From the NCBI RefSeq assembly GCF_017743995.1, contig NZ_JAGHRB010000006.1:62001-126000 (forward strand): a stretch of 64,000 bases of DNA, written 5' to 3'. Positions 2,304 to 62,822 of this stretch are shown piece by piece (the first letter of the stretch is position 1; every line of letters starts with the position of its first letter). Both the position numbers and the translations under genes were made by a program. Under the pieces are notes generated by a model. It was not told the origin of the DNA. It made no database searches and saw only the letters and a program-made list of their open reading frames with translations. The DNA comes from Ruegeria sp. R13_0. Lineage in GTDB: Bacteria; Pseudomonadota; Alphaproteobacteria; Rhodobacterales; Rhodobacteraceae.

Positions 2304-2959
2304 GCGTCCGTGGCAACAAGCAGCCAGTTCGGATCGTCCTTGCCCATCACGCGAGCAAAGGTCCAGCTGTCCTTTTGGCGTTTCACGGTGTTCGGGTTGC
2401 CTTCGATGATGTCACCACCACGATCCCGCACGACCGAGGTCAGCTCACCAATGAACTTCATGGTGATTTCGGCCTCATTCGTATCTTTGTCAAAGGACAC
2501 ATCGGTCAGGGTGGTTTCGCGCACGCCGATAAACTCGGCCTCGATTGTCAGGCCTTGATCTTCGCGCGCGGATACAACCGAGACGAAGGTTTCGAACACA
2601 TCTTCGGCCAGGAAGGGCTGGATTTCGTCCAGGTTGCCCTTCTCAAAACCCATCACAATCATTTCATAGGCACCGCGGGCACCCTGAACAAATTCACTGA
2701 CCGAGAAGCTGGGCTCGACCCGCTTCATCGCGGCCAGGGTCTGGGCTTGCTCGCTGTCTTCGGGGACGTGATCGGTGATGTCATGATCCGGACCACCTTC
2801 GATCACCTCGAAATCACGACGGGACGCGCCCGCATCGGGCTGATGCGGAACAGGGGGTTTTTCGAAACCTTCACGCGTTCCCAGCACGCTTTTCAAACGC
2901 AGGATCAGGAAAACGGCAATTCCGGCCAGTACCAGCAGCTGGATCATGGGTTCGTTCAT
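2300..2959 (-). CDS. Tim44-like domain membrane-anchored protein
   Basis: A 219-residue protein with one N-terminal membrane segment (about residues 5-22), a charged linker rich in Asp and Glu, and a C-terminal Tim44-like domain from about residue 90 on. Mitochondrial Tim44 tethers Hsp70 to the import channel; the alphaproteobacterial relatives (TimA) lie near secB and fxsA in many genomes, but their function is not settled. Here it is the first gene of the leftward Tim44-mltA-smr group and is divergent from fxsA. The spacing and the 4-bp overlap with mltA suggest an envelope-related transcription unit. Confidence 0.82.
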   Translation of the reverse strand: MNEPMIQLLVLAGIAVFLILRLKSVLGTREGFEKPPVPHQPDAGASRRDFEVIEGGPDHDITDHVPEDSEQAQTLAAMKRVEPSFSVSEFVQGARGAYEMIVMGFEKGNLDEIQPFLAEDVFETFVSVVSAREDQGLTIEAEFIGVRETTLTDVSFDKDTNEAEITMKFIGELTSVVRDRGGDIIEGNPNTVKRQKDSWTFARVMGKDDPNWLLVATDA

Positions 2960-2985
2960 TTCATCCTCTTTTCAGAACCGAGACT

Positions 2986-3014
2986 TTGTGTACGCGGCCT
3001 CCTGCCACTATGTA
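2986..3014 (+). promoter_or_regulatory. candidate sigma-70 promoter of fxsA-secB
   Basis: TTGTGT at 2986-2991 and TATGTA at 3009-3014 are separated by 17 bp, 54 bases before the fxsA start. The -35 match is fair and the -10 match is partial. The same TATGTA hexamer follows a TTGACT upstream of rho in this window, which gives some support. Confidence 0.35.
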
Positions 3015-3067
3015 GGTGACAGTTGGTGGCAAGTCCACAGTTCGGCCATAGGTAAAGGATAACGCAA

Positions 3068-3568
3068 ATGTACCTGTTCTTGGCATTTTTATTGGTTCCG
3101 ATCCTCGAGATCGCCCTGTTCATTCAGGTTGGCGGTCTGATCGGTCTGTGGCCAACCCTTGCCATCGTGGTTCTGACAGCGGTTTTGGGCACCACATTGG
3201 TGCGGACACAAGGTCGCATGGCGTTGGGGCAATTGCAGCAATCCTTCGCCACTCTGGACGACCCGACCGAGCCCTTGGCCCATGGCGCAATGATCCTTTT
3301 GTCCGGCGCACTGTTGCTGACACCCGGATTTTTCACCGATGCCGTTGGGTTTGCGCTGTTAATCCCCGGCGTGCGGATCGCCGTTTTCCGCTATCTGAAG
3401 ACCAAGGTGACCGTGACCCAGTTCCAGATGGGGCCGGGCGCGGGCTTCCAACAACCACGCGGTCCCCATGATCAGGGCGACGTGATTGACGGCGAGTTTA
3501 CTGAGGTGCGCCCACGCAGGGACCCTTCGAAACCGTCAAAATGGGTGGAAGGCCCCCACCAGCATTGA
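3068..3568 (+). CDS. fxsA: FxsA family inner-membrane protein
   Basis: A 166-residue membrane protein with three to four hydrophobic segments: residues 1-25 (starting MYLFLAFLLVPILEIALF), about 27-45, 75-98 and 98-107. The opening 'LVP-ILEI-LFI-VGG-IG-W-TL' pattern is typical of the FxsA/YtzA family. E. coli FxsA overexpression relieves phage T7 exclusion by the F plasmid; its normal job is unknown. The C-terminal third is polar and probably cytoplasmic. It lies 54 bp upstream of secB on the same strand, the arrangement seen in many alphaproteobacteria. Confidence 0.88.
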   Translation: MYLFLAFLLVPILEIALFIQVGGLIGLWPTLAIVVLTAVLGTTLVRTQGRMALGQLQQSFATLDDPTEPLAHGAMILLSGALLLTPGFFTDAVGFALLIPGVRIAVFRYLKTKVTVTQFQMGPGAGFQQPRGPHDQGDVIDGEFTEVRPRRDPSKPSKWVEGPHQH

Positions 3569-3622
3569 GGTGCCGCGCGCAACTTGCTAAGCAGTGTCGA
3601 ATTTCATTTTTGGAGTAGATCC

Positions 3623-4132
3623 ATGGCCGAAGAAAACGCTGCAGAAAACACTGCGGCCCAAGCCGCCCCTCAGGTTCAGATGCGCGTTCTGGGACAGTTC
3701 ATTCGTGATATGTCCTTTGAAAACGTCATGGCGCAAAAAGGCGTGTCCGGTGACGTACAGCCCGAGATTCAGGTTCAGGTGAACCTGGACGCGAAAAAGC
3801 GTCAGGTCGAGCATCAGTACGAAGTTTCGATCAAGCTGAAGCTGACCTCGAAAGCCAAAGGCATGGACGATGTCCTGTTCCTGTGCGAGCTGGACTATTG
3901 CGGGCTGTTCCACGTGGAAGGCGTGCCAGAAGATCAGCTGCACCCATTCCTGATGATCGAATGCCCGCGCATGCTGTTCCCGTTCCTGCGCCGTATCGTC
4001 AGCGACGTCACCCGCGATGGTGGCTATCCGCCGGTGAACCTGGACAACATTGATTTCGTTGCACTTTACCGCAACGAGCTGATGCGCCGTCAGGCCGCTC
4101 AGGCGGAACAGGCCGAGCAGACCGACGCCTAA
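3623..4132 (+). CDS. secB: protein-export chaperone SecB
   Basis: A cytoplasmic homotetrameric chaperone that keeps secretory precursors unfolded and delivers them to SecA. The start at 3623 is preferred because GGAG at 3612-3615 lies 7 bp before it; the frame is open upstream to an ATG at 3584, but that start has no good ribosome-binding site and would add 13 non-conserved residues. The protein (169 residues) has an Ala/Glu-rich N-terminus, the family stretch LGQFIRDMSFENV near residue 20, and the CPRMLFPFLRRIVSDVTRDGGYPP region that forms part of the core. A terminator follows directly. Confidence 0.95.
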   Translation: MAEENAAENTAAQAAPQVQMRVLGQFIRDMSFENVMAQKGVSGDVQPEIQVQVNLDAKKRQVEHQYEVSIKLKLTSKAKGMDDVLFLCELDYCGLFHVEGVPEDQLHPFLMIECPRMLFPFLRRIVSDVTRDGGYPPVNLDNIDFVALYRNELMRRQAAQAEQAEQTDA

Positions 4133-4143
4133 ATCCCTTGAGC

Positions 4144-4170
4144 CCCGTGCCTGACCGGATCAGGCACGGG
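4144..4170. terminator. bidirectional terminator between secB and dnaQ
   Basis: An 11-bp perfect stem (4144-4154 with 4160-4170) with the loop CCGGA. It lies 11 bases after the secB stop. The right arm contains the dnaQ stop codon and its last codons, so the same hairpin can serve both convergent genes. No long T-run follows on either side. Confidence 0.6.
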
Positions 4171-4882
4171 TCCACAGGGCGCTTTCGCCCAGTTTCTCGA
4201 CAAATGCCTCATGCGCTGCGCGCTCATCCTCGGTGATCCGGGACGGCAGAGGCGTTGCGCGCGGTGTCGGACGCCAGTCATCTGCACCCCCCGCGCCGGA
4301 CGCGGCCGAGGTAGACAGGCCGAAATCCGGTTGGCGTCCGCCGATCAGCTCTAGATAAACCTCGGCCAGGATCTCCGAGTCCAAAAGCGCGCCGTGCAGC
4401 ACTCGGTTCGAGTTGTCGATATTGAACCGCCGACACAGTGCATCCAACGAGGCCGGAGAGCCCGGAAACCGTTTGCGCGCAATGGCGAGCGTATCGAGCG
4501 CCTGATCCATCGGAATCGGCGGCAGGCCCATCCATTTCAGCTCGGCGTTCAGGAACTTCATGTCGAAAGACGCGTTGTGGATCACCAGTTTCGCGTCGCC
4601 AACAAAATCGCGAAACCCTTGACCCACTTTGGCAAAAACCGGTTTGTCTTTCAGCGTCACCTCACCCTTTTCGGGCGGGCGCGGGGTTTCCAGCAGGTCG
4701 GGACCGATGCCATGTACGCCAAACGCCTCTTCCGGCATGCCGCGTTCGGGGTTGATATAGACATGATAGGTCTCGCCCGTGGCCACGTGGTTCCACAGCT
4801 CGACCGCGCCGATCTCAACAATTCGGTCACCGCTTTCAGGATCAAAGCCCGTGGTTTCGGTATCGAGTACAATCTCACGCAT
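4160..4882 (-). CDS. dnaQ: DNA polymerase III epsilon subunit (3'-5' exonuclease)
   Basis: The proofreading subunit of the replicative polymerase. Exo I is DTETTGFD with Asp7 and Glu9, Exo II is in HNASFDMKFL, and Exo III is in HGALLDSEIL, together giving the DEDDh metal ligands. The 240-residue length is normal. The C-terminal tail after about residue 180 is Gly/Ala-rich and should link to the polymerase alpha subunit. It overlaps the 3' end of coaE by 8 bp and is the last gene of maf-aroE-coaE-dnaQ, a conserved order beside the origin in alphaproteobacteria. Confidence 0.94.
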   Translation of the reverse strand: MREIVLDTETTGFDPESGDRIVEIGAVELWNHVATGETYHVYINPERGMPEEAFGVHGIGPDLLETPRPPEKGEVTLKDKPVFAKVGQGFRDFVGDAKLVIHNASFDMKFLNAELKWMGLPPIPMDQALDTLAIARKRFPGSPASLDALCRRFNIDNSNRVLHGALLDSEILAEVYLELIGGRQPDFGLSTSAASGAGGADDWRPTPRATPLPSRITEDERAAHEAFVEKLGESALWTRA

Positions 4883-5468
4883 CAGCCATCCCCGCCCTTA
4901 TTTGCCTGACCACATCCTGCACCTGCGCGCGGGCATGGTCCAGTGTGTCGGTTTCAATCACATAGTCCGAGCGCGCGCATTTCTCGTCATTCGGCATTTG
5001 CTTGGCGCGGATCTGTTCGAACTGCGCCTCGGACATCGTGCCGCGTTCCATCACGCGGCGCTTTTGTTCGTCAGACGACGCCCGAACGCAGGCGACCGCA
5101 TCCATCACGGCCTCACCGCCCGTTTCGAACAGAAGCGGGATGTCGAACACCAGAATATCGGCCGAGGCACTTTCGCGAAACGCTGCACGGTCCGCGGCAA
5201 CCAGAGGGTGAACGATCCCTTCGATCCGTTTCAACGCAGACCTGTCTTCCGAGATAATCCGTTTCAAAGCCTCGCGGCTGACTGCGCCCTCTAAGATAGC
5301 CGAGGGAAAACCCTCAGCCATGGGTCCGACTGCCGCGCCACCCTTGGCATAGAGCCGATGCACCGCTGCATCCGCATCCCAAAGCGCGCAGCCTTCATCG
5401 ACGAACATCTGCGCCGTGGTGCTTTTGCCCATCCCGATCGAGCCTGTCAGGCCAAGCGCAAACCTCAT
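4875..5468 (-). CDS. coaE: dephospho-CoA kinase
   Basis: Catalyses the last step of coenzyme A synthesis, ATP-dependent phosphorylation of the 3'-hydroxyl of dephospho-CoA. The 197-residue protein has a Walker A loop GSIGMGKST at residues 9-17, the conserved DADAAVHRLY stretch near residue 32, and the lid region with CVRASSDEQKRRVMERG. It overlaps aroE upstream by 4 bp and dnaQ downstream by 8 bp, so translation of the group is probably coupled. Confidence 0.94.
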   Translation of the reverse strand: MRFALGLTGSIGMGKSTTAQMFVDEGCALWDADAAVHRLYAKGGAAVGPMAEGFPSAILEGAVSREALKRIISEDRSALKRIEGIVHPLVAADRAAFRESASADILVFDIPLLFETGGEAVMDAVACVRASSDEQKRRVMERGTMSEAQFEQIRAKQMPNDEKCARSDYVIETDTLDHARAQVQDVVRQIRAGMADA

Positions 5469-6298
5469 GCCAGCACGGCCGCGCGCAAATCGTCATTGAC
5501 CTCCGGGCGTACGCCGAACCAACGTTCAAAGCCCGGAACCGCCTGATGCAGCAGCATGCCCAGACCATCGACCACGGTGCATCCGGCCTCTTCCGCCGTT
5601 TCCAACAGGTTGGTCTTGAGCGGCGCGTAGACCAGATCGGTCACCACGGCGCCCGGCTGCAAGCCATCCAATGGCACCCGCAGTTCGGGCTGGCCCTGCA
5701 TGCCCAGAGAGGTCGTGTTGACCACAAGCTCGGCGTTTTCGATCACGTTGCCAGCCTGTACCCAATCCACAACGGTAATGCGCTGGCCGAATTCTTCTCT
5801 CAGATGATCGGCACGGGTGCGGGTGCGGTTGGTCAGCAGAATTTCGGGCACACCCGCATCCGCCAACGCCTGCAACACGGCGCGCGCCGCTCCGCCTGCG
5901 CCAAAGACCACGGCCGGGCCATCCTTGGCGTTCCAATCCGGTGCGCCAGCGCGCAGGTTCTCCATGAACCCATACCCATCGGTGTTATCGGCGTGGATCG
6001 AGCCATCCTCGCGGAAAACCAACGTGTTCGCGGCCCCGATCACGGTCGCCCGGTCCGAGACGTGGTCTGCAATGCGCAAGGCAGCCTCTTTATGCGGCAC
6101 CGTCACGTTTGTTCCCACAAAACCGGCCTTGGGCAGGGTGCGCAGGACGGCCTCCAGATCAGCCGGGGCGACATCCATGGGAACGTAGTGCCCATCCAGC
6201 CCGTATGTCTTCAGCCAATGCCCATGCAATCTGGGTGAGCGGGAATGGCCCACCGGGTGCCCGATCACTCCGGCCAGAGGAATCTTGTGGTCCGTCAT
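5465..6298 (-). CDS. aroE: shikimate dehydrogenase
   Basis: Reduces 3-dehydroshikimate to shikimate with NADPH in the aromatic amino-acid pathway. The shikimate-binding serines are in GHSRSP (residues 18-22), the catalytic pair is Lys70 (in NVTVPHK) and Asp107 (in NTDGYG), and the nucleotide-binding loop is GAGGAARA near residue 131. At 277 residues it has the usual AroE length rather than that of the YdiB or fused plant enzymes. It shares 4-bp overlaps with maf and coaE. Confidence 0.95.
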   Translation of the reverse strand: MTDHKIPLAGVIGHPVGHSRSPRLHGHWLKTYGLDGHYVPMDVAPADLEAVLRTLPKAGFVGTNVTVPHKEAALRIADHVSDRATVIGAANTLVFREDGSIHADNTDGYGFMENLRAGAPDWNAKDGPAVVFGAGGAARAVLQALADAGVPEILLTNRTRTRADHLREEFGQRITVVDWVQAGNVIENAELVVNTTSLGMQGQPELRVPLDGLQPGAVVTDLVYAPLKTNLLETAEEAGCTVVDGLGMLLHQAVPGFERWFGVRPEVNDDLRAAVLA

Positions 6299-6894
6299 TG
6301 ATCAATCACCCCTTTGACAGCCAGATAGTTGAGCAGCTCCAACAGTGGCATACCCAAAACGTTAAAGTAGTCACCGTCAATGGTGGCGAACAGGCGCACG
6401 CCTTCTTCCTCAAGCTTATATGCGCCCACCGCGTGGCGGATGCTGTCCCAGTTGCGGTCGACATAGTCGCGCAGATAAGCGTCCGAACTCATCCGCATCC
6501 GCAGGCGCACCTGACCGACATGGCGCCAGATCGGCTCTCCGTCCTGATAAATCACCGCTGCGGACAGCAACATGTGCCGCTTGCCCCGCATCATCTTCAA
6601 CTGGGCAAAGGCATCCTCAGGGGTCTGAGGCTTCGACAATAGCTGTCCGTCGAAATCCAGAACCTGATCGCAGCCCAGCACCATCGCTCCGGGTGTCTTG
6701 TCACTCACCTTGCGCGCCTTCATTTCCGCCAGCGCATCGGCAATGTCACGCGGCGAGGCGCCCTCGGCCAACAAGGCGCGCTTTATGCTATCCTCGTCTA
6801 CGCGCGCGATCTGAACAGAGAAAGGCACGCCTGCATTTTTCAGCAACTGCGCGCGAATGGAGGATCCTGAGGCCAGGACAATGGGGACAGACAT
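6295..6894 (-). CDS. maf: Maf family nucleotide pyrophosphatase
   Basis: Hydrolyses non-canonical or modified nucleoside triphosphates to monophosphates; Maf proteins also influence septation in Bacillus. The 199-residue protein has the N-terminal LASGSSIRAQLL motif, a Lys/Arg-containing core, and GCDQVLDFDG (about residues 74-83) with the catalytic Asp. The SKPQTPEDA stretch resembles the subgroup that includes E. coli YceF, but exact substrate class is an inference. It is the first gene of the leftward operon and starts at the edge of the origin candidate; a TGTGGACAA box overlaps its start codon. Confidence 0.9.
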   Translation of the reverse strand: MSVPIVLASGSSIRAQLLKNAGVPFSVQIARVDEDSIKRALLAEGASPRDIADALAEMKARKVSDKTPGAMVLGCDQVLDFDGQLLSKPQTPEDAFAQLKMMRGKRHMLLSAAVIYQDGEPIWRHVGQVRLRMRMSSDAYLRDYVDRNWDSIRHAVGAYKLEEEGVRLFATIDGDYFNVLGMPLLELLNYLAVKGVIDQ

Positions 6895-7298
6895 GTGGAC
6901 AACCCCGTGGGCAAATCGTTGAGCGGTCTTGGACGCTTTGTATGGTTTTCAGATTGACACGCAAGCCCGGGAATTTCGCGAAAAACTTCCCTGAGTCGCT
7001 CAAAAATCATCCAATCGGGGTAAGGATAACTTGGAAACGGCGGATAACCGGGAAATCTGGAATTGTTCAAGGTGTTATCCCCAGATGCATCCTCTGACGT
7101 CAGTTTTAACTATATGTTTTATATGATTTATTATTGAAATGCACAGAATCACTCAAATCTTGTCCAAAACTGTCCACTTGGGGAAAACCAATGGGTAAAA
7201 AAGTAATCCACGGATTTTACCCACCCTACAAAACCATCTTCCTTTCTTCTTTCTTATTTTTTTATTAGGGAGAGTTCCGAGCAACGCCCGGAGCCAAA
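6895..7298. other. oriC: candidate chromosomal replication origin (oriC)
   Basis: A 404-base gene-free stretch between divergent maf and hemJ. Sequences close to the DnaA box TTATCCACA occur on both strands: TGTGGACAA at 6894-6902 (reverse, one mismatch), TTATCCCCA at 7075-7083 (one mismatch), and two-mismatch forms at 7021-7029 and 7039-7047 (reverse), 7160-7168, 7179-7187 (reverse) and 7204-7212. An AT-rich tract at 7104-7140 sits in the middle and could be the unwinding element. Two GANTC (CcrM) sites lie at 6993-6997 and 7146-7150. A T-rich run at 7228-7265 precedes hemJ. In Caulobacter the origin also lies between a hem gene and the maf-aroE-coaE-dnaQ group, near rho, mnmE, mnmG and parAB. 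Function is inferred. Confidence 0.75.
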
Positions 7299-7748
7299 AT
7301 GACTGATCTTCTTTTCGCGATTTACCCGTGGGTGAAGTCCCTTCATATCATGGCGGTGATTTCGTGGATGGCAGGTCTGTTCTACTTACCTCGTCTGTTC
7401 GTCTATCACGTCGAAAAGGCGCAAGCGGTTAACGGGGCCGAGACCATCTTCTTTGAAATGGAAGAGAAGCTGCTGCGCGTGATCATGCGCCCTGCGATGA
7501 TCGTGGCCTGGGTCTGTGGTCTGATCATGGTGTTCACGCCCGGTATCGTCGGTTGGGATTTTGCATGGCCTTGGGCCAAAGGCGCGGCCGTGATTGGCAT
7601 GACCTGGTTTCATCATTGGCTGATGGCCCGCCGCAAGGATTTCGCTGAGGGGCGAAATAAGCTCACTGGGCGGCAGTATCGCATGATGAACGAGGTTCCG
7701 ACCGTTCTGATGGTTGTCATCGTTCTGGCGGTCATTCTGAAGTTCTGA
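7299..7748 (+). CDS. hemJ: protoporphyrinogen IX oxidase HemJ
   Basis: An inner-membrane enzyme that oxidises protoporphyrinogen IX to protoporphyrin IX in heme and chlorophyll synthesis, used where HemG and HemY are absent. The 149-residue protein has four predicted membrane helices and the family motif around SLHIMAVISWMAGLFYLPRL, including His16, Arg32 and His37, of which the histidine is implicated in heme binding in studied members. It is the first gene rightward of the origin candidate and lies upstream of rho, an order common in alphaproteobacteria. HemJ was formerly annotated UPF0093/CopD-like. Confidence 0.88.
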   Translation: MTDLLFAIYPWVKSLHIMAVISWMAGLFYLPRLFVYHVEKAQAVNGAETIFFEMEEKLLRVIMRPAMIVAWVCGLIMVFTPGIVGWDFAWPWAKGAAVIGMTWFHHWLMARRKDFAEGRNKLTGRQYRMMNEVPTVLMVVIVLAVILKF

Positions 7749-10475: not shown

Positions 10476-12353
10476 GTGTTTCACGTGAAACATTCAGACT
10501 TTGATGTAGTCGTCATTGGCGCAGGGCACGCGGGCACCGAGGCTGCGCATGCAGCAGCCCGAATGGGTGTTTCGACAGCATTGGTCACGCTATCCGCCGC
10601 AGATATCGGTGTGATGTCCTGCAATCCTGCAATCGGGGGATTGGGTAAAGGCCACTTGGTTCGTGAGATAGACGCTTTGGACGGCGTTATGGGGCGTGTT
10701 GCCGACCAAGCAGGGATCCAGTTCCGGCTGTTAAACCGTCGCAAGGGGCCAGCAGTGCAGGGGCCAAGAACACAAGCAGATAGGGCGCTTTACCGAGCTG
10801 CGATGCAAAGGGAAACGGATAGGCAAGAAAACCTGTCTGTTATTGTTGGCGAAGTCGTAGACTTTCTGATGAATCAGGATCGTGTCGCTGGTGTAAAATT
10901 GGGCGACGGGTCAGAAATCTCAGCAAAGTCAGTCATTCTTACATCGGGCACGTTCCTTCGCGGTGTGATCCATATCGGAGACGTCTCGCGACCCGGAGGT
11001 CGCATGGGAGATCGCCCTTCCGTCAGATTGGCGGAACGTTTGGATGCATATGACCTTCCAACGGGACGGTTGAAAACGGGAACCCCACCGAGGTTGGACG
11101 GGCGCACCATAGATTGGTTAGGTTTGGAGCGCCAGGACGGCGACGACGAGCCAACCTTGTTCTCGTTCCTGTCGACATCCGTTGTCGCGCCTCAGATTTC
11201 GTGTGGGATTACGCATACGAACGCTCAGACACATGAAATAATTGAAAAGAACCTAAGCAAGTCGGCGATGTATGGCGGCCATATCGATGGGGTGGGTCCA
11301 AGATACTGCCCGTCGATCGAAGACAAGATCGTTCGGTTTGCAGAGAAAGACTCGCATCAGATCTTCCTTGAGCCCGAAGGAGTGAACGACCATACAATAT
11401 ACCCCAACGGTATTTCGACGTCCTTGCCGCAGGATGTGCAGCTACAATATGTTCGTTCGATCAAAGGGCTAGAGAATGTTGACATCCTGCAGCCCGGCTA
11501 TGCCATTGAGTACGACTATATAGACCCCCGTGTCTTATCAGCGACTTTGGCCTTGCCCGAGATTCCAGGCCTATATCTAGCTGGCCAGATCAACGGAACC
11601 ACAGGATATGAGGAGGCTGCCGCTCAGGGTATGGTTGCTGGCCTCAATGCGGCTTTGGCTGTTCAGGATCGGGAACCGATCCATTTCACCCGTGCCGATA
11701 GCTACATCGGTGTCATGATAGATGACCTCACCACTCGAGGCGTTGCAGAGCCGTATCGGATGTTCACCTCGCGTGCAGAGTTTAGATTGTCTCTGCGTGC
11801 GGATAACGCCGATCAGCGTTTAACGCCGATTGGGCTACAGTTGGGTTGTGTTGGAAGCCGACGCCGAAAAGTCTTTACTGAAAAGATGGATCAATTAAGC
11901 GACGCGAAATCGCTTTTGAGTGATCGAACCTATACGCCGAAAGAGGTTTTGGCAGCTGGCATCAATGTCAATCAGGACGGGAATAGACGTGATGGAATGG
12001 CGATTCTGGCTTTTCCGGATGTGGCTTTTGAGGATCTGCTGCCCTTGATACCCGAACTGGACACGGTGATGCCAGAAATCCGGCTTCAGGTCGCTAGGGA
12101 TGCGCTATACGCAAACTATATCGCACGGCAACAGCGGGATGTCGAAGCTATGAAGAGGGATGAATCCTATCAGATTCCCAGGGATTTCGACTATTTTGCT
12201 TTGGATGGGCTTTCATCTGAAATGAAGCACAAGCTGTCTCAGGCAAAACCCGGAAATATTGCTCAGGCCAGTAGGGTAGAAGGCGTTACACCCGCGGCAT
12301 TGACTTTGGTTTTGGCAAAACTTCGGCGTGATCAAAAAGTTAAACAAGCATGA
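10476..12353 (+). CDS. mnmG: tRNA uridine-5-carboxymethylaminomethyl modification enzyme MnmG
   Basis: The FAD-dependent partner of MnmE. The GTG start at 10476 gives an N-terminus [10 protein letters not shown] whose codons are part of a perfect parS site; an in-frame GTG at 10485 is an alternative. The 625-residue protein has the FAD-binding [10 protein letters not shown] at residues 15-25, the [23 protein letters not shown] region with an active-site Cys, the second family signature [16 protein letters not shown] near residue 370, and a C-terminal helical domain for MnmE and tRNA contact. It overlaps rsmG by 4 bp. Confidence 0.96.
10477..10492. other. parS: parS centromere-like site 1
   Basis: The 16-bp palindrome TGTTTCACGTGAAACA, an exact match to the ParB-binding consensus. 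It overlaps the first codons of mnmG and lies about 3.3 kb from parB. ParB loads here, spreads, and is moved by ParA; SMC loading is a further known role. Confidence 0.93.
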
Positions 12354-12961
12354 AGCCTGAATTTTCCAAGTTCGATGTTTCACGTGAAACATTCGACCGG
12401 CTGGATAGGTATGTGGAGCTGGTGAAACGCTGGAATCCCAAGATCAACCTGGTTTCCAGGAACAGTCTGGAGGACATCTGGGACCGACATATTTTGGATT
12501 CCGTCCAGGTATTCCGATGTGCAACGGTCGCGGATACCTGGGTGGATATCGGAACCGGAGGCGGATTTCCGGGGATGGTATGCGCGATTGTGGCATTGGA
12601 CGAGGCGCCATACACCCGTTTCCAATTCGTTGAAAGTGATCAGAGAAAATCGGCTTTTCTAAGGAACGTTGCACGTGAATGTGGGGTGACGTGTCAGGTC
12701 ATTTCAAAACGAATCGAATCCGTTGATCCACTTGAAGCTGACATCCTATCAGCCCGCGCTTTGGCAGATCTACGCACATTATTGTTCTTTTGTGACAGGC
12801 ATTTAAGCGAGAATGGCACTGCTTTGTTGCCGAAAGGCGCGAACTGGAAAAAAGAACTGTCAGAGGCCCAGGAAGAATGGAAATTCGATGTTGAGCCGAT
12901 TACAAGTTTAACAGAGCCCCAAGCCGTAATCCTTAAAATCAAAGGAGTATCTCGTGGTTGA
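12350..12961 (+). CDS. rsmG: 16S rRNA (guanine527-N7)-methyltransferase RsmG
   Basis: Methylates G527 (E. coli numbering) of 16S rRNA with SAM; loss gives low-level streptomycin resistance in several bacteria. The 203-residue protein has the SAM loop [11 protein letters not shown] at 65-75 and the preceding [19 protein letters not shown] typical of GidB. Its codons 9-14 (DVSRET) come from the second parS palindrome. ATGA overlap joins it to mnmG and its 3' end overlaps parA by 8 bp, so mnmE-mnmG-rsmG-parA-parB is probably one unit. GC content looks lower than in the flanking genes. Confidence 0.95.
12376..12391. other. parS: parS centromere-like site 2
   Basis: A second exact copy of TGTTTCACGTGAAACA, inside the 5' part of rsmG and about 1.9 kb from the first copy. 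Two perfect copies so close to parAB make a functional segregation site very likely. Confidence 0.93.
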
Positions 12962-13757
12962 TCTTTCTCGTCCTTCAGGGCCCCGGATAATTGCGGTTGC
13001 CAATCAGAAGGGCGGAGTTGGGAAAACTACGACGGCGATAAATCTGGCTGCGGGTTTGGCCGAAGCTGGCTGCCGGGTTCTGGTTGTTGATCTCGATCCG
13101 CAGGGCAACGCGTCGACTGGATTGGGTGTCGAAGACCGAGATTGGACCACTTATGATCTTATTCTGGACGACGCACCGCTCGAGGCGGTCATACAAGAAA
13201 CTGAGATAGGTGGTCTTTTCGTCATTCCGGCCACTGTCGATCTGAGCTCGGCGGATATCGAACTGATTTCAAACGAAAAACGCAGCTACTTGCTGCATGA
13301 CGCGTTGCGACAAACCTCAATAGACGGATTCGAGCTGGATTTCGTCTTGATTGACTGCCCTCCGTCCTTGAATCTGCTGACGGTGAACGCAATGGTTGCG
13401 TCCCATTCGGTTCTTGTTCCATTGCAGAGTGAATTCTTTGCTCTGGAGGGTTTGTCTCAGTTGATGCTGACGATTCGAGAGGTTCGCCAAACTGCGAATC
13501 CGGATCTAAGAATCGAAGGTATTGTGTTGACCATGTATGACAACCGCAACAACTTGTCCCGTCAGGTCGAGAAAGACGCACGTGACAATTTGGGTGAGAT
13601 GGTTTTTAAGACCAAGATACCCAGAAATGTGCGGGTCAGTGAGGCGCCGTCTTACGCGTTGCCAGTTTTGCAATATGACTCGGGCTCGCTTGGGGCGATG
13701 GCATATCGTCATTTGGCCCGCGAAGTCATGCACAAGAACAACAAAGTCGCTGCTTAA
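12954..13757 (+). CDS. parA: chromosome partitioning ATPase ParA
   Basis: A Walker-type ATPase that binds DNA non-specifically and moves ParB-parS complexes. The start is a GTG with AAGGAG at 12942-12947, 6 bp before it. The 267-residue protein has the deviant Walker A KGGVGKTT at 19-26 (signature Lys included), DLDPQGNAS near residue 47, and the Walker B-type VLIDCPPSLNLLT near residue 125. No N-terminal helix-turn-helix is present, so it is the short chromosomal (Soj-type) form rather than a plasmid P1-type ParA. Confidence 0.95.
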   Translation: MVDLSRPSGPRIIAVANQKGGVGKTTTAINLAAGLAEAGCRVLVVDLDPQGNASTGLGVEDRDWTTYDLILDDAPLEAVIQETEIGGLFVIPATVDLSSADIELISNEKRSYLLHDALRQTSIDGFELDFVLIDCPPSLNLLTVNAMVASHSVLVPLQSEFFALEGLSQLMLTIREVRQTANPDLRIEGIVLTMYDNRNNLSRQVEKDARDNLGEMVFKTKIPRNVRVSEAPSYALPVLQYDSGSLGAMAYRHLAREVMHKNNKVAA

Positions 13758-13777
13758 GCGACAATGAGGAGGGCGAC

Positions 13778-14674
13778 ATGAGCGCCAAAAAAGCGAAACC
13801 CAGGGGTCTTGGTCGTGGTCTTTCGGCCCTTATGGCGGATGTTACGCAGGAAACGGATGGACGCTCACCGGCCGAGCCGCGCCGGCCGGATATGACGGTT
13901 CCCATTGAAAAGCTGAAGGCGAACCCGAACCAGCCGCGCCGGACATTCCAGCCTGAGCAGTTGGACGAGTTGGCGTCCTCGGTCAAGGAAAAGGGAATCA
14001 TCCAACCATTGATCGTGCGGTCGATCGGTGCCGGAGAGTATGAAATCGTTGCGGGGGAACGCCGTTGGCGCGCCGCGCAAATGGCGCAACTGCATGATAT
14101 TCCAGTCATTGTTCGCGATTTTGATGATACCGAGGTTCTGGAAGTCGCGATTATTGAAAATATACAACGGGCGGATTTGAATTCCGTCGAAGAAGCGGCT
14201 GGTTACAAGCAGCTCATGGACCGTTTCGGCCACACGCAGGAGAAACTGGCTGAGGCTTTGGGTAAAAGTCGCAGTCATATAGCCAACCTTCTGCGCCTGT
14301 TGTCACTGCCGATAGATGTGCAAGCCCTTGTGATTGAAGGGAAATTATCCGCAGGGCATGCAAGGGCTTTGATCACGGCCGAGAATCCATCGGAACTGGC
14401 CAAACGGGTCGTGAAAGACGGGCTTTCGGTAAGGGCGACAGAAGCCCTAGTGAAAAAGCAACAGCAGGGCTCAGGAGATCGTCCCGCGCCGAGGTCTCGG
14501 GATCTGAACGCAGGTAAAGATGCAGATACCCGCGCGCTGGAGAAAGACCTCTCGGCCATCTTGGCTATGAAGGTTTCGATCAATCACAAGGCCGGGACAG
14601 AAACAGGTCAGGTTGTTTTGACCTATGAGAACCTGGATCAGTTGGACGATCTTTGCGCCAAACTCAGCCGTTAG
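13778..14674 (+). CDS. parB: chromosome partitioning protein ParB
   Basis: A CTP-dependent DNA clamp that recognises parS. The 298-residue protein has the basic GLGRGLSAL N-terminus used for ParA contact, the CTP-binding motif GERRWRA at 93-99, ENIQRADLNSVEEA, a helix-turn-helix (QEKLAEALGKSRSHIANLLRLL about 150-170), and a C-terminal dimer domain. GAGGAGGG precedes the ATG. Its last 11 bases overlap the 3' end of the convergent DUF454 gene. The two perfect parS sites lie just upstream in mnmG and rsmG. Confidence 0.95.
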   Translation: MSAKKAKPRGLGRGLSALMADVTQETDGRSPAEPRRPDMTVPIEKLKANPNQPRRTFQPEQLDELASSVKEKGIIQPLIVRSIGAGEYEIVAGERRWRAAQMAQLHDIPVIVRDFDDTEVLEVAIIENIQRADLNSVEEAAGYKQLMDRFGHTQEKLAEALGKSRSHIANLLRLLSLPIDVQALVIEGKLSAGHARALITAENPSELAKRVVKDGLSVRATEALVKKQQQGSGDRPAPRSRDLNAGKDADTRALEKDLSAILAMKVSINHKAGTETGQVVLTYENLDQLDDLCAKLSR

Positions 14675-25203: not shown

Positions 25204-25871
25204 GATCCGGCAAAGGGCGCGTCGCTTCCCCAAAGCTGCTTCACCCGAGCATCCCGACCGCAGGCATTGCGGTAGGCTTTATAGGCGTTCTTCTGGCGTT
25301 TGGGGCCAAAGCGGGTGAAGACCAGCTTGTCACCTTTGTAGTAGTCCTGATGGTATTCCTCGGCCGGAAAAAACGCACCCTCCTGCAGGATCGGGGTGAC
25401 AACCGTTTGGCCAAGGGCCCGTTGCGCGTTGGTCTTTGCCTGTTGCGCAAGCGCTTTTTCCCCTGCGTTAGAGACGAAAATGGCCGTGCGGTAGCTGTCA
25501 CCGCGGTCGCAGAACTGACCGCCCGCATCTGTGGGATCGACCGAGCGGAAGAACAGGTTCAGCAGCGTTTCACGTGAGACGCGCGCGGGATCAAACGTGA
25601 TCTGAACCGCCTCGTAATGGCCCGTACCGCCTTTGGTCACCTGATCATAAGTCGGGTTCGAGACCGAGCCGCCGGTGAACCCGGACACAGCACCGATGAC
25701 GCCGGGTACGGATTCGAAATCGGATTCAACACACCAGAAACATCCACCGGCAACCGTCAGTGTCTCGGTCCCTGCAGCCGGGGCCGGAACGGCGCGCAAG
25801 GTTGCGGCCAGTGCAATCCAGGTGAACAACAGGGCGGGTTTTAGGTAGTCGAGATATGCAGTCCGGGTCAT
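25200..25871 (-). CDS. msrA: exported peptide-methionine (S)-S-oxide reductase
   Basis: Reduces methionine-S-sulfoxide in proteins. The ATG at 25871 is chosen for its GGAG ribosome-binding site (AGGAGACATACC); 223 residues. A hydrophobic segment (about residues 11-33) ends in an Ala/Pro-rich stretch, which indicates export or membrane anchoring. The catalytic motif GGCFWC is at 42-47 with Cys44 nucleophilic. GTGHYEAVQITFDP and FFPAEEYHQDYY are typical MsrA blocks. A C-terminal cysteine (NACGRD) can act as resolving Cys. No MsrB domain. Its coding strand contains a degenerate parS-like sequence. Confidence 0.9.
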   Translation of the reverse strand: MTRTAYLDYLKPALLFTWIALAATLRAVPAPAAGTETLTVAGGCFWCVESDFESVPGVIGAVSGFTGGSVSNPTYDQVTKGGTGHYEAVQITFDPARVSRETLLNLFFRSVDPTDAGGQFCDRGDSYRTAIFVSNAGEKALAQQAKTNAQRALGQTVVTPILQEGAFFPAEEYHQDYYKGDKLVFTRFGPKRQKNAYKAYRNACGRDARVKQLWGSDAPFAGS

Positions 25872-28448: not shown

Positions 28449-28790
28449 ATGGACTGGAAAGACTTCATGGCCGAGACCGAGGCCAATATCGGCATCCTCT
28501 CGAAAGAGGTCCCCGAAACGGTGCGCGGCTTCGGGATGATGGGCAAGGCGGCCAAAACCGATGGCGCCCTGAGCGAGAAAACCAAAGAGTTCATCGCGCT
28601 GGGCATTGCCATCGCCACACGTTGCGACAGCTGCATCGGGTTTCACGTGAAATCACTGGTGCGTCTTGGTGCCACTCGCGAGGAGTTGTGCGAGGCGCTG
28701 TCGATGGCGACCTATATGGGCGGAGGCCCGTCGTTTGCCTACAGCGCAAAGGCGCTGAAGGCGTTTGATGTGTTCTCGGAAGGCGACTAA
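28449..28790 (+). CDS. carboxymuconolactone decarboxylase/AhpD-like protein
   Basis: A 113-residue single-domain protein. AAGGAGG at 28436-28442 lies 6 bp before the ATG. Cys59 and Cys62 (CDSC) with His66 form the CxxCxxxH redox centre of the AhpD-like branch, so an alkylhydroperoxidase or thiol-redox role is more likely than decarboxylation. SEKTKEFIALGIAIATRC and CEALSMATYMGGGPSFAYSAKAL are typical family blocks. It follows the importer genes by 11 bp and may be cotranscribed. Its stop codon interlocks with that of the convergent SCP2 gene. Confidence 0.87.
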   Translation: MDWKDFMAETEANIGILSKEVPETVRGFGMMGKAAKTDGALSEKTKEFIALGIAIATRCDSCIGFHVKSLVRLGATREELCEALSMATYMGGGPSFAYSAKALKAFDVFSEGD

Positions 28791-61886: not shown

Positions 61887-62822
61887 ATGAAAAAGCTGAT
61901 GACAGCCATCGCCCTTCTGGCCGCTGCGCCGGCCTGGGCCGAAGACAAGATGACCGTTCTGCTGGATTGGTTCATCAACCCCGATCATGGGCCCATCATC
62001 GTGGCGCAGGAAAACGGCTATTTCGCCGAGCAGGGCCTCAAGGTTGAGATCGTTCCCCCCGCTGACCCGTCCGCTCCGCCGCGTCTGGTGGCTGCTGGTC
62101 AGGCCGAACTTGCCGTATCCTATCAGCCGCAACTGCACCTGCAGATCCACGAAGGCCTGCCGCTGAAACGCGTCGGCACGCTGGTCGCGACTCCTTTGAA
62201 CTGCCTGTTGGTTCTGGAAGATGGCCCGATCAAGTCGCCTGCGGACCTGAAAGGCAAGAAAATCGGTTTCTCGGTCGCGGGCGTGGAAGAGGCTGTTCTG
62301 GGCACCGTTCTGGGCAAATACGATGTGACGCTGGACGATGTTGAACTGATCAACGTGAACTTCTCGCTCTCGCCGTCGCTGATGACCGGTCAGGTGGACG
62401 CGGTGATCGGTGCCTATCGGAACTTCGAGCTGAACCAGATGGATATCGAAAGCCGCCCCGGCACCTGCTTCTATATCGAGGAAGAGGGCGTGCCGTCCTA
62501 TGACGAGCTGATCTACGTTGCTAACCCCGAGACGATGGACAAGGACAAGATCGCGCGTTTCCTGGCAGCAACCGAAAAAGCGACCCAGTACATCGTCAAC
62601 AACCCGGAAAAAAGCTGGGAGATCTTCGCCGCGACGTCGCCCGAGTTGCAGGATGAGCTGAACGCCCGCGCCTGGGTCGACACTCTGCCGCGTTTCGCTC
62701 TGCGCCCGGCTGGTTTTGACGCAGGCCGCTACGCCCGTTTTGAAACCTTCCTGAACGAAAGCGGCATGATCGACAGCGTTCTGCCGGTCAGCGACATTAC
62801 GATCGACGTGACCGCGCAATGA
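61887..62822 (+). CDS. thiY: thiamin-pyrimidine ABC transporter substrate-binding protein ThiY
   Basis: A 311-residue periplasmic protein with a Sec signal (MKKLMTAIALLAAAPAWA). The body is of the NMT1/THI5-like fold: MTVLLDWFINPDHGPIIVAQENGYFAEQGL, GKKIGFSVAGVEEAVLG and GTCFYIEEEGVPSYDELIYV. ThiY in other bacteria binds N-formyl-aminomethyl-pyrimidine, a thiamin breakdown product. The identity rests on family resemblance and the position beside tenA and thiZ. Start 61887 follows AAAGGAAA. Confidence 0.9.
   Translation: MKKLMTAIALLAAAPAWAEDKMTVLLDWFINPDHGPIIVAQENGYFAEQGLKVEIVPPADPSAPPRLVAAGQAELAVSYQPQLHLQIHEGLPLKRVGTLVATPLNCLLVLEDGPIKSPADLKGKKIGFSVAGVEEAVLGTVLGKYDVTLDDVELINVNFSLSPSLMTGQVDAVIGAYRNFELNQMDIESRPGTCFYIEEEGVPSYDELIYVANPETMDKDKIARFLAATEKATQYIVNNPEKSWEIFAATSPELQDELNARAWVDTLPRFALRPAGFDAGRYARFETFLNESGMIDSVLPVSDITIDVTAQ

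Follow-up and report, generated by a model that had tools for sequence, protein, structure and literature searches.

A candidate chromosomal origin of replication between maf and hemJ in Ruegeria sp. R13_0

The gap between maf and hemJ

The window analysed here is a stretch of 64,000 nucleotides from the draft genome of Ruegeria sp. R13_0, which comprises 4.68 Mb in 56 contigs; it spans positions 62,001–126,000 of a contig of 280,331 bases, labelled C53 (G000:C53:62001-126000). Based on the list of open reading frames and on Pfam matches, the window contains a gene-free gap of 404 bp at 6895–7298, bounded on the left by maf (6295–6894, minus strand; PF02545) and on the right by hemJ (UPF0093; 7299–7748, plus strand; PF03653). 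To the left of the gap lie, in order, smr, mltA, tim44, fxsA, secB, dnaQ, coaE, aroE and maf; to the right follow hemJ, rho, mnmE, mnmG, rsmG, parA and parB. The parA gene (12954–13757, plus strand) matches models of ParA/MinD-type ATPases and parB (13778–14674, plus strand) matches PF02195, PF17762 and PF23552. The Pfam check covered maf, hemJ, parA and parB, and the names of the other neighbours are those that we presume from their translations. A preliminary description of this DNA had reported a gene-free stretch of 404 bp close to parAB and to a maf-aroE-coaE-dnaQ group, and this arrangement was recovered in full, with parA and parB at 12954–14674 and dnaQ, coaE, aroE and maf directly to the left of the gap.

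A scan against the perfect DnaA box, TTATCCACA, revealed eight DnaA-box-like sites in the gap and at its left edge, distributed over both strands. Two of these have one mismatch: TTGTCCACA at 6894–6902 (minus strand), which overlaps the maf start codon by one base, and TTATCCCCA at 7075–7083 (plus strand). The other six have two mismatches and comprise TTATCCTTA, with a TTATCC core, at 7021–7029 (minus), TTATCCGCC at 7039–7047 (minus), TTTTCCCCA at 7179–7187 (minus) and TAATCCACG at 7204–7212 (plus), as well as two doubtful boxes, TTGTCCAAA at 7160–7168 (plus) and TTACCCACC at 7217–7225 (plus). None of the eight is perfect. The scan bears out the earlier account of this region, which had listed box-like sequences on both strands at the same positions, with one-mismatch boxes at 6894–6902 and 7075–7083, no perfect box and a first box that overlaps the maf start codon.

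The cluster is denser than base composition would predict. With up to two mismatches, seven sites fall fully within the gap, whereas 2000 first-order Markov simulations yielded 1.37 on average (p = 0.0005); with up to one mismatch, the single site within the gap (0.10 expected) is not significant in the same simulations (p = 0.09). Among the 412-bp tiles scanned over 280,000 contig bases, the candidate ranks first with 8 boxes and the next best tile has 5; the scan found no perfect DnaA box in these 280,000 bases.

An AT-rich tract at 7095–7154 (75–80% A+T) forms a candidate unwinding region, most letters of which are poorly conserved. The A+T content reaches 80% at 7095–7134 and 75% at 7115–7154, and boxes lie on either side, in agreement with the AT-rich tract among boxes that had been noted before. 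Two GANTC sites are located at 6993–6997 (kept in 62 of 81 aligned sequences) and 7146–7150 (kept in 37 of 81). Both had been put forward in support of an origin; they are present, but their number does not exceed the simulated mean of 1.65 significantly (p = 0.49) and they carry no statistical weight in this respect.

Two further elements occupy the ends of the gap. On the maf side, conservation and spacing suggest a putative maf promoter, TTGCGT and TACAAA separated by 16 nt, at 6937–6964 (minus strand); a scan for consensus promoters did not return this element and reported one site, at 7106–7134, against 0.4 expected. On the hemJ side, column conservation marks out CCTACAAAACCATC and a pyrimidine/AT stretch at 7223–7268, which may represent an unwinding module and/or the hemJ promoter. 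By eye, the corresponding gaps of outgroup genomes end in a similar block. An inverted 8-base repeat was also observed, ATGGTTTT at 6942–6949 and AAAACCAT at 7230–7237, with the arms 280 nt apart and both falling in the conserved promoter-like blocks at the gap ends.

Conservation of the boxes among relatives

For comparison, we used the best 80 of 431 HemJ matches and aligned the gaps of these 80 loci with that of the window (81 sequences). Many of the aligned rows are close relatives, which means that the counts given below are not independent; HemJ of the window is 88–95% identical to that of the first 42 of the 80 loci, nearly all of them from Ruegeria. In all of these best 80 loci, maf and hemJ face each other over 371–452 bp, and the gap measures 402–406 bp in 55 of the 81 sequences, including the window (lengths are approximate in L068, L075 and L077, where the Maf match starts late).

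Conserved blocks in the alignment of 81 sequences coincide with most of the boxes, and two further blocks lie at the gap ends. Conservation, taken as how far the 62 more distant sequences agree on average with the window, was 0.83 for the five boxes at 7021, 7039, 7075, 7179 and 7204 and 0.56 at other positions; of 363 circular shifts, none scored as high. When all seven inner boxes were included, the values were 0.71 and 0.57, and 6 of the 363 shifts did as well; this weaker result is due to the boxes at 7160 and 7217, which are not conserved.

The boxes differ in how they are kept. The box at 6894 has no or one mismatch to TTATCCACA in 80 of the 81 sequences, reading TTTTCCACA in 61 and matching perfectly in 5; given its contact with the maf start codon, it may be kept constant for the sake of maf expression, and DnaA could, as suggested earlier, also act on this operon. 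At 7021 (mean conservation 0.85) the alignment consensus is TTATCCTTG, and 57 of the 81 sequences have three mismatches to the perfect box. The site at 7039 is variable (0.61), with no or one mismatch in 13 of 79 ungapped rows and a perfect box in one of the 79. The box at 7075 (0.88) reads TTATCCCCA in 47 of 81 and is perfect in 14, while that at 7179 (0.89) reads TTTTCCCCA in 56 of 81 and is perfect in 3. The most uniform inner box is the one at 7204 (0.93), which has one or two mismatches in all 81 sequences. Conservation drops to 0.30 at the doubtful site 7160 and to 0.47 at 7217, where 2 of 61 ungapped rows have two mismatches and all others have more.

Boxes with at most one mismatch occur at 3.67 per kb in the 81 gaps, compared with 0.10 per kb in 160 control gaps (the tim44-fxsA and hemJ-rho gaps of the 80 loci) and 0.11 per kb in neighbouring coding DNA. 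A perfect box is present in 19 of the 81 gaps and in none of the 160 control gaps. The R. pomeroyi genome holds 12 perfect boxes, against 14 matches to a reversed control pattern, and none lies at its origin. Two of its perfect TTATCCACA boxes, 76 bp apart, are found at about 6629–6713 of locus L110 (positions 1676629–1676713 of the R. pomeroyi contig), where they precede a reading frame that contains a repeat of 20 residues and lie beside a gene that by eye resembles exonuclease III. This pair is possibly a DnaA-regulated or DnaA-titrating site.

We also examined motifs of other proteins and of the unwinding reaction. The strict CtrA motif, TTAA-N7-TTAA, is absent from the window gap and matches 4 of the 81 gaps. 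Allowing one mismatch, the window gap again has no match, and matches occur in 29 of 81 gaps, 7 of 81 shuffled gaps and 1 of 160 control gaps. The loosest TTWW form occurs twice in the window gap and in 75 of the 81 gaps, compared with 6 of the 160 control gaps, which are shorter. Two forms of the IHF consensus gave no match in the window gap; one of them, WATCAN5WTR, matched 29 of 81 gaps, 7 of 81 shuffled gaps and none of the 160 control gaps. CtrA control of the origin in Ruegeria sp. R13_0 is not supported by these motif searches; it may operate in relatives, whose gaps match more often than shuffled ones. An influence of CtrA on replication has been shown in some Rhodobacterales (PMC8116508).

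A search rule for DnaA-trios is set out in PMC8287927, and the form applied here combined a DnaA box, a spacer of 0–16 and three or more NAN trios. Matches to the core of this rule were found at 7217–7244 and also starting from two further boxes, those at 7021 and 7039. The rule is permissive: it matched 66 of the 81 gaps, 22 of 28 outgroup gaps and none of 80 rho interiors, but also 24 of 81 shuffled gaps. The pattern next to hemJ was present in 24 of the 81 real gaps, and a run-length test after the box at 7204 gave a median shuffle p of 0.05, with values below 0.05 in 49% of the 81 rows. With respect to the published basal unwinding system (PMC8287927), the Ruegeria gap matches the core of the rule, as do 24 of the 81 shuffled gaps, and the box at 7217 is unconserved.

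GC skew, parS sites and dnaA

Since the draft genome is split into 56 contigs, GC skew was followed along the contig and along two sampled scaffolds of relatives. The cumulative minimum lies at window position 7327, 29 bases into hemJ, both for the window alone and for 280,000 of the 280,331 contig bases. Exceptions occur along the contig: of the six 10-kb tiles before 60 kb, two have a slightly positive skew, and of the 21 tiles beyond 70 kb, five have a slightly negative one. Among the best 80 of 431 HemJ loci, 69 have the minimum no more than about 1 kb from the gap and 11 have it elsewhere. Of 28 outgroup pieces of 8.4 kb, 15 have their minimum close to the gap, and in the other 13 the distance exceeds about 600 bases.

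On the scaffold of R. pomeroyi SZCCDBG043, 20 sampled stretches were negative in 7 of 8 cases on one side and positive in 10 of 12 on the other, and the reverse switch lies between the stretches at 2.20 and 2.40 Mb. On the G120 scaffold, which is probably from the same assembly as locus L029, 6 of 8 stretches to the left were negative; to the right, 9 of 10 were positive up to 1.5 Mb, followed by two of two negative (20 stretches in total). Three of 20 stretches ran against the pattern in each scaffold. The skew of both sampled scaffolds fits an origin at the maf/hemJ gap. The skew minimum of the complete chromosome had been named beforehand as a check on the candidate; on the contig it falls on the site, and the two related scaffolds switch sign there, with the exceptions given.

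A genome-wide search for the 14-base parS core that tolerated one mismatch returned four places, all of them in the window (10478, 12377, 25567 and 28640) and all 3–22 kb to the right of the gap. Two are perfect parS sites on the plus strand, at 10477–10492 and 12376–12391, which belong to the beginnings of the mnmG and rsmG coding sequences, respectively. The sites at 25566–25581 and 28639–28654 (both plus strand) are degenerate, with 3 of 16 bases mismatched, one of them in the 14-base core. All of the best 80 of 431 related loci contain two or three parS sites with no more than two mismatches of 16. By position, a counterpart of the perfect site was seen at the mnmG start in 79 of the 80 related loci and at the rsmG start in 80 of 80.

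A dnaA domain match was located at C53:272558, 203 kb from the gap. The surrounding 4 kb hold two boxes with one mismatch and neither a perfect box nor a cluster. A second locus with perfect boxes beside dnaA, named in the preliminary description as a finding that would speak against the candidate, is thus absent.

The origin reading and its flanking genes

We place the candidate oriC at 6892–7298, from the maf start codon to the last base before hemJ. A chromosome origin between maf and hemJ had been proposed from inspection of the letters, and the skew minimum, the box cluster, the clustering of parS sites and the conservation of the gap, which is present in all 80 loci kept, support this proposal. 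The locus combines the features of a DnaA-dependent oriC: a box cluster, an adjoining AT-rich region, a GC-skew switch, and parAB with parS sites nearby. We conclude, with a probability of about 0.95, that the maf/hemJ gap is the chromosomal oriC of Ruegeria sp. R13_0. Origins have been assigned in 101 of 109 Rhodobacteraceae from skew, mismatch-tolerant DnaA boxes and closeness to parAB (PMC6699656); our candidate belongs to the same family and is based on the same criteria as these predicted origins.

At such an origin, DnaA would load onto mostly weak boxes that flank the AT-rich tract, with a left group at 7021–7083, a right group at 7179–7212 and an outlier at 6894. Strand opening would then take place within the AT-rich tract, the conserved stretch 7223–7268 or both, and two replisomes would depart in opposite directions, which would account for the switch in skew as well as for the divergent orientation of the genes. 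ParB, bound to the parS sites 3–22 kb rightward, would subsequently segregate the new origin.

Alternatively, the gap could serve solely as a conserved region of divergent promoters for the operons of maf and hemJ, in which the boxes are regulatory or due to chance. The conserved TTGCGT-16-TACAAA on the maf side, a CTACAAA on the hemJ side and the box abutting the maf start would suit this function. Promoters alone, however, leave the skew switch and the parS cluster unexplained. Gaps with boxes are also retained in genomes in which the neighbours do not include hemJ, or include neither maf nor hemJ, and boxes with no more than one mismatch are about 36 times as dense in the aligned gaps as in the control gaps, making this explanation very improbable. 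Slightly less credible still is a true initiation site a few kb away in the same neighbourhood, to which the gap would merely be close. Skew has a resolution no better than some hundred bases and its minimum lies 29 bases inside hemJ, but elsewhere on the contig 412-bp tiles hold at most 5 boxes, and the 160 tim44-fxsA and hemJ-rho control gaps hold no perfect and two one-mismatch boxes between them. We give the least credence, close to none, to a structured RNA or small gene in the gap. A mechanically called reading frame at 6420–7097 (plus strand) does extend into it; against this, the fold energy is unremarkable (z-score 0.12, one strand, DNA parameters), no Rfam match was returned up to E = 1 in 6700–7500, and conservation is confined to short blocks, several of which are boxes.

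The origin at the maf/hemJ gap resembles Cori of Caulobacter crescentus in its weak DnaA sites and in its wider neighbourhood, since in Caulobacter maf-aroE-coaE-dnaQ and parAB adjoin the origin as well. Cori is described as having weak DnaA sites and not perfect boxes (PMC4468827), and five CtrA sites and one IHF site (PMC1914354). In contrast, the Ruegeria gap has no strict or one-mismatch CtrA match and no IHF consensus match. The immediate flanks differ as well: in Caulobacter and Rickettsia, the origin is bordered by hemE and COG1806 (DUF299; PMC1914354), whereas the Ruegeria gap is flanked by maf and hemJ. The earlier statement that the position matches the Caulobacter origin therefore holds for the wider neighbourhood but not for the genes on either side. 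A profile search of the Ruegeria genome gave no match for DUF299 (PF03618), and its hemE is located on another contig, C52.

The comparison was extended to 121 genomes of the order, our own included, and the locus could be read in 49 of the others. DUF299 was detected in one of the 121, G110, which has maf-DUF299, a gap of 431 bp with one perfect box, and hemE-hemJ-rho, and so displays the Caulobacter layout. In this sole DUF299-bearing genome, the Caulobacter-type order of DUF299, gap and hemE is seen at 2694–4990 of locus L182. The 28 genomes with hemJ at the locus comprise 26 with maf and hemJ around the gap, one with aroE and hemJ (maf undetected) and the one with DUF299 and hemE. The outgroup set consisted of 40 stretches, of which 12 (L170–L181) were omitted, having weak HemJ-like matches or none by tblastn and lying off the neighbourhood. 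These 12 genomes and 9 others without any HemJ match were read via maf; in all 21, which lack a similar hemJ, maf faces rho across 503–601 bp. Boxes with up to two mismatches are present in 21 of these 21 maf/rho gaps and boxes with up to one mismatch in 18. A box-bearing gap is thus found in all 49 further genomes read, while the flanking genes vary. At 4482–4997 of locus L160, no maf was detected between aroE and hemJ; this gap, possibly overlong because maf was undetected, has 39% A+T yet contains a perfect box.

The simplest account of these gene orders is that the origin stayed put and the genes on either side were lost or moved, the direction of change being taken from the Caulobacter layout and not from a tree. 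Among the titles and abstract openings covered by our literature search, none concerns a maf/hemJ origin or the loss of hemE and COG1806 from the Rhodobacteraceae origin. A rule that places the origin between hemE and COG1806 would overlook that of Ruegeria and those of 48 of the 49 further genomes.

Most sequences are one step away from a perfect box at 6894 and 7075, and this raises the idea that the oriC boxes form a fixed array whose weakness is kept by selection. We regard this as doubtful, though worth considering. Shared ancestry alone could preserve the letters of weak boxes. In Caulobacter, weak boxes have been discussed together with competition by CtrA, whereas the origin of Ruegeria sp. 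R13_0 is without CtrA consensus matches; the CtrA-like matches in 29 of 81 relatives weigh against a reading of the weak boxes that is free of CtrA.

The present analysis assigns the probable origin, for a common marine genus, to a 404-bp fragment whose boxes are named; of some interest are the altered neighbouring genes and the retention of weak boxes. If the weak-box pattern is indeed selected, it could help to separate the role of weak boxes from CtrA control, and box weakness would be a basic timing device, retained while the flanking genes were lost or moved.
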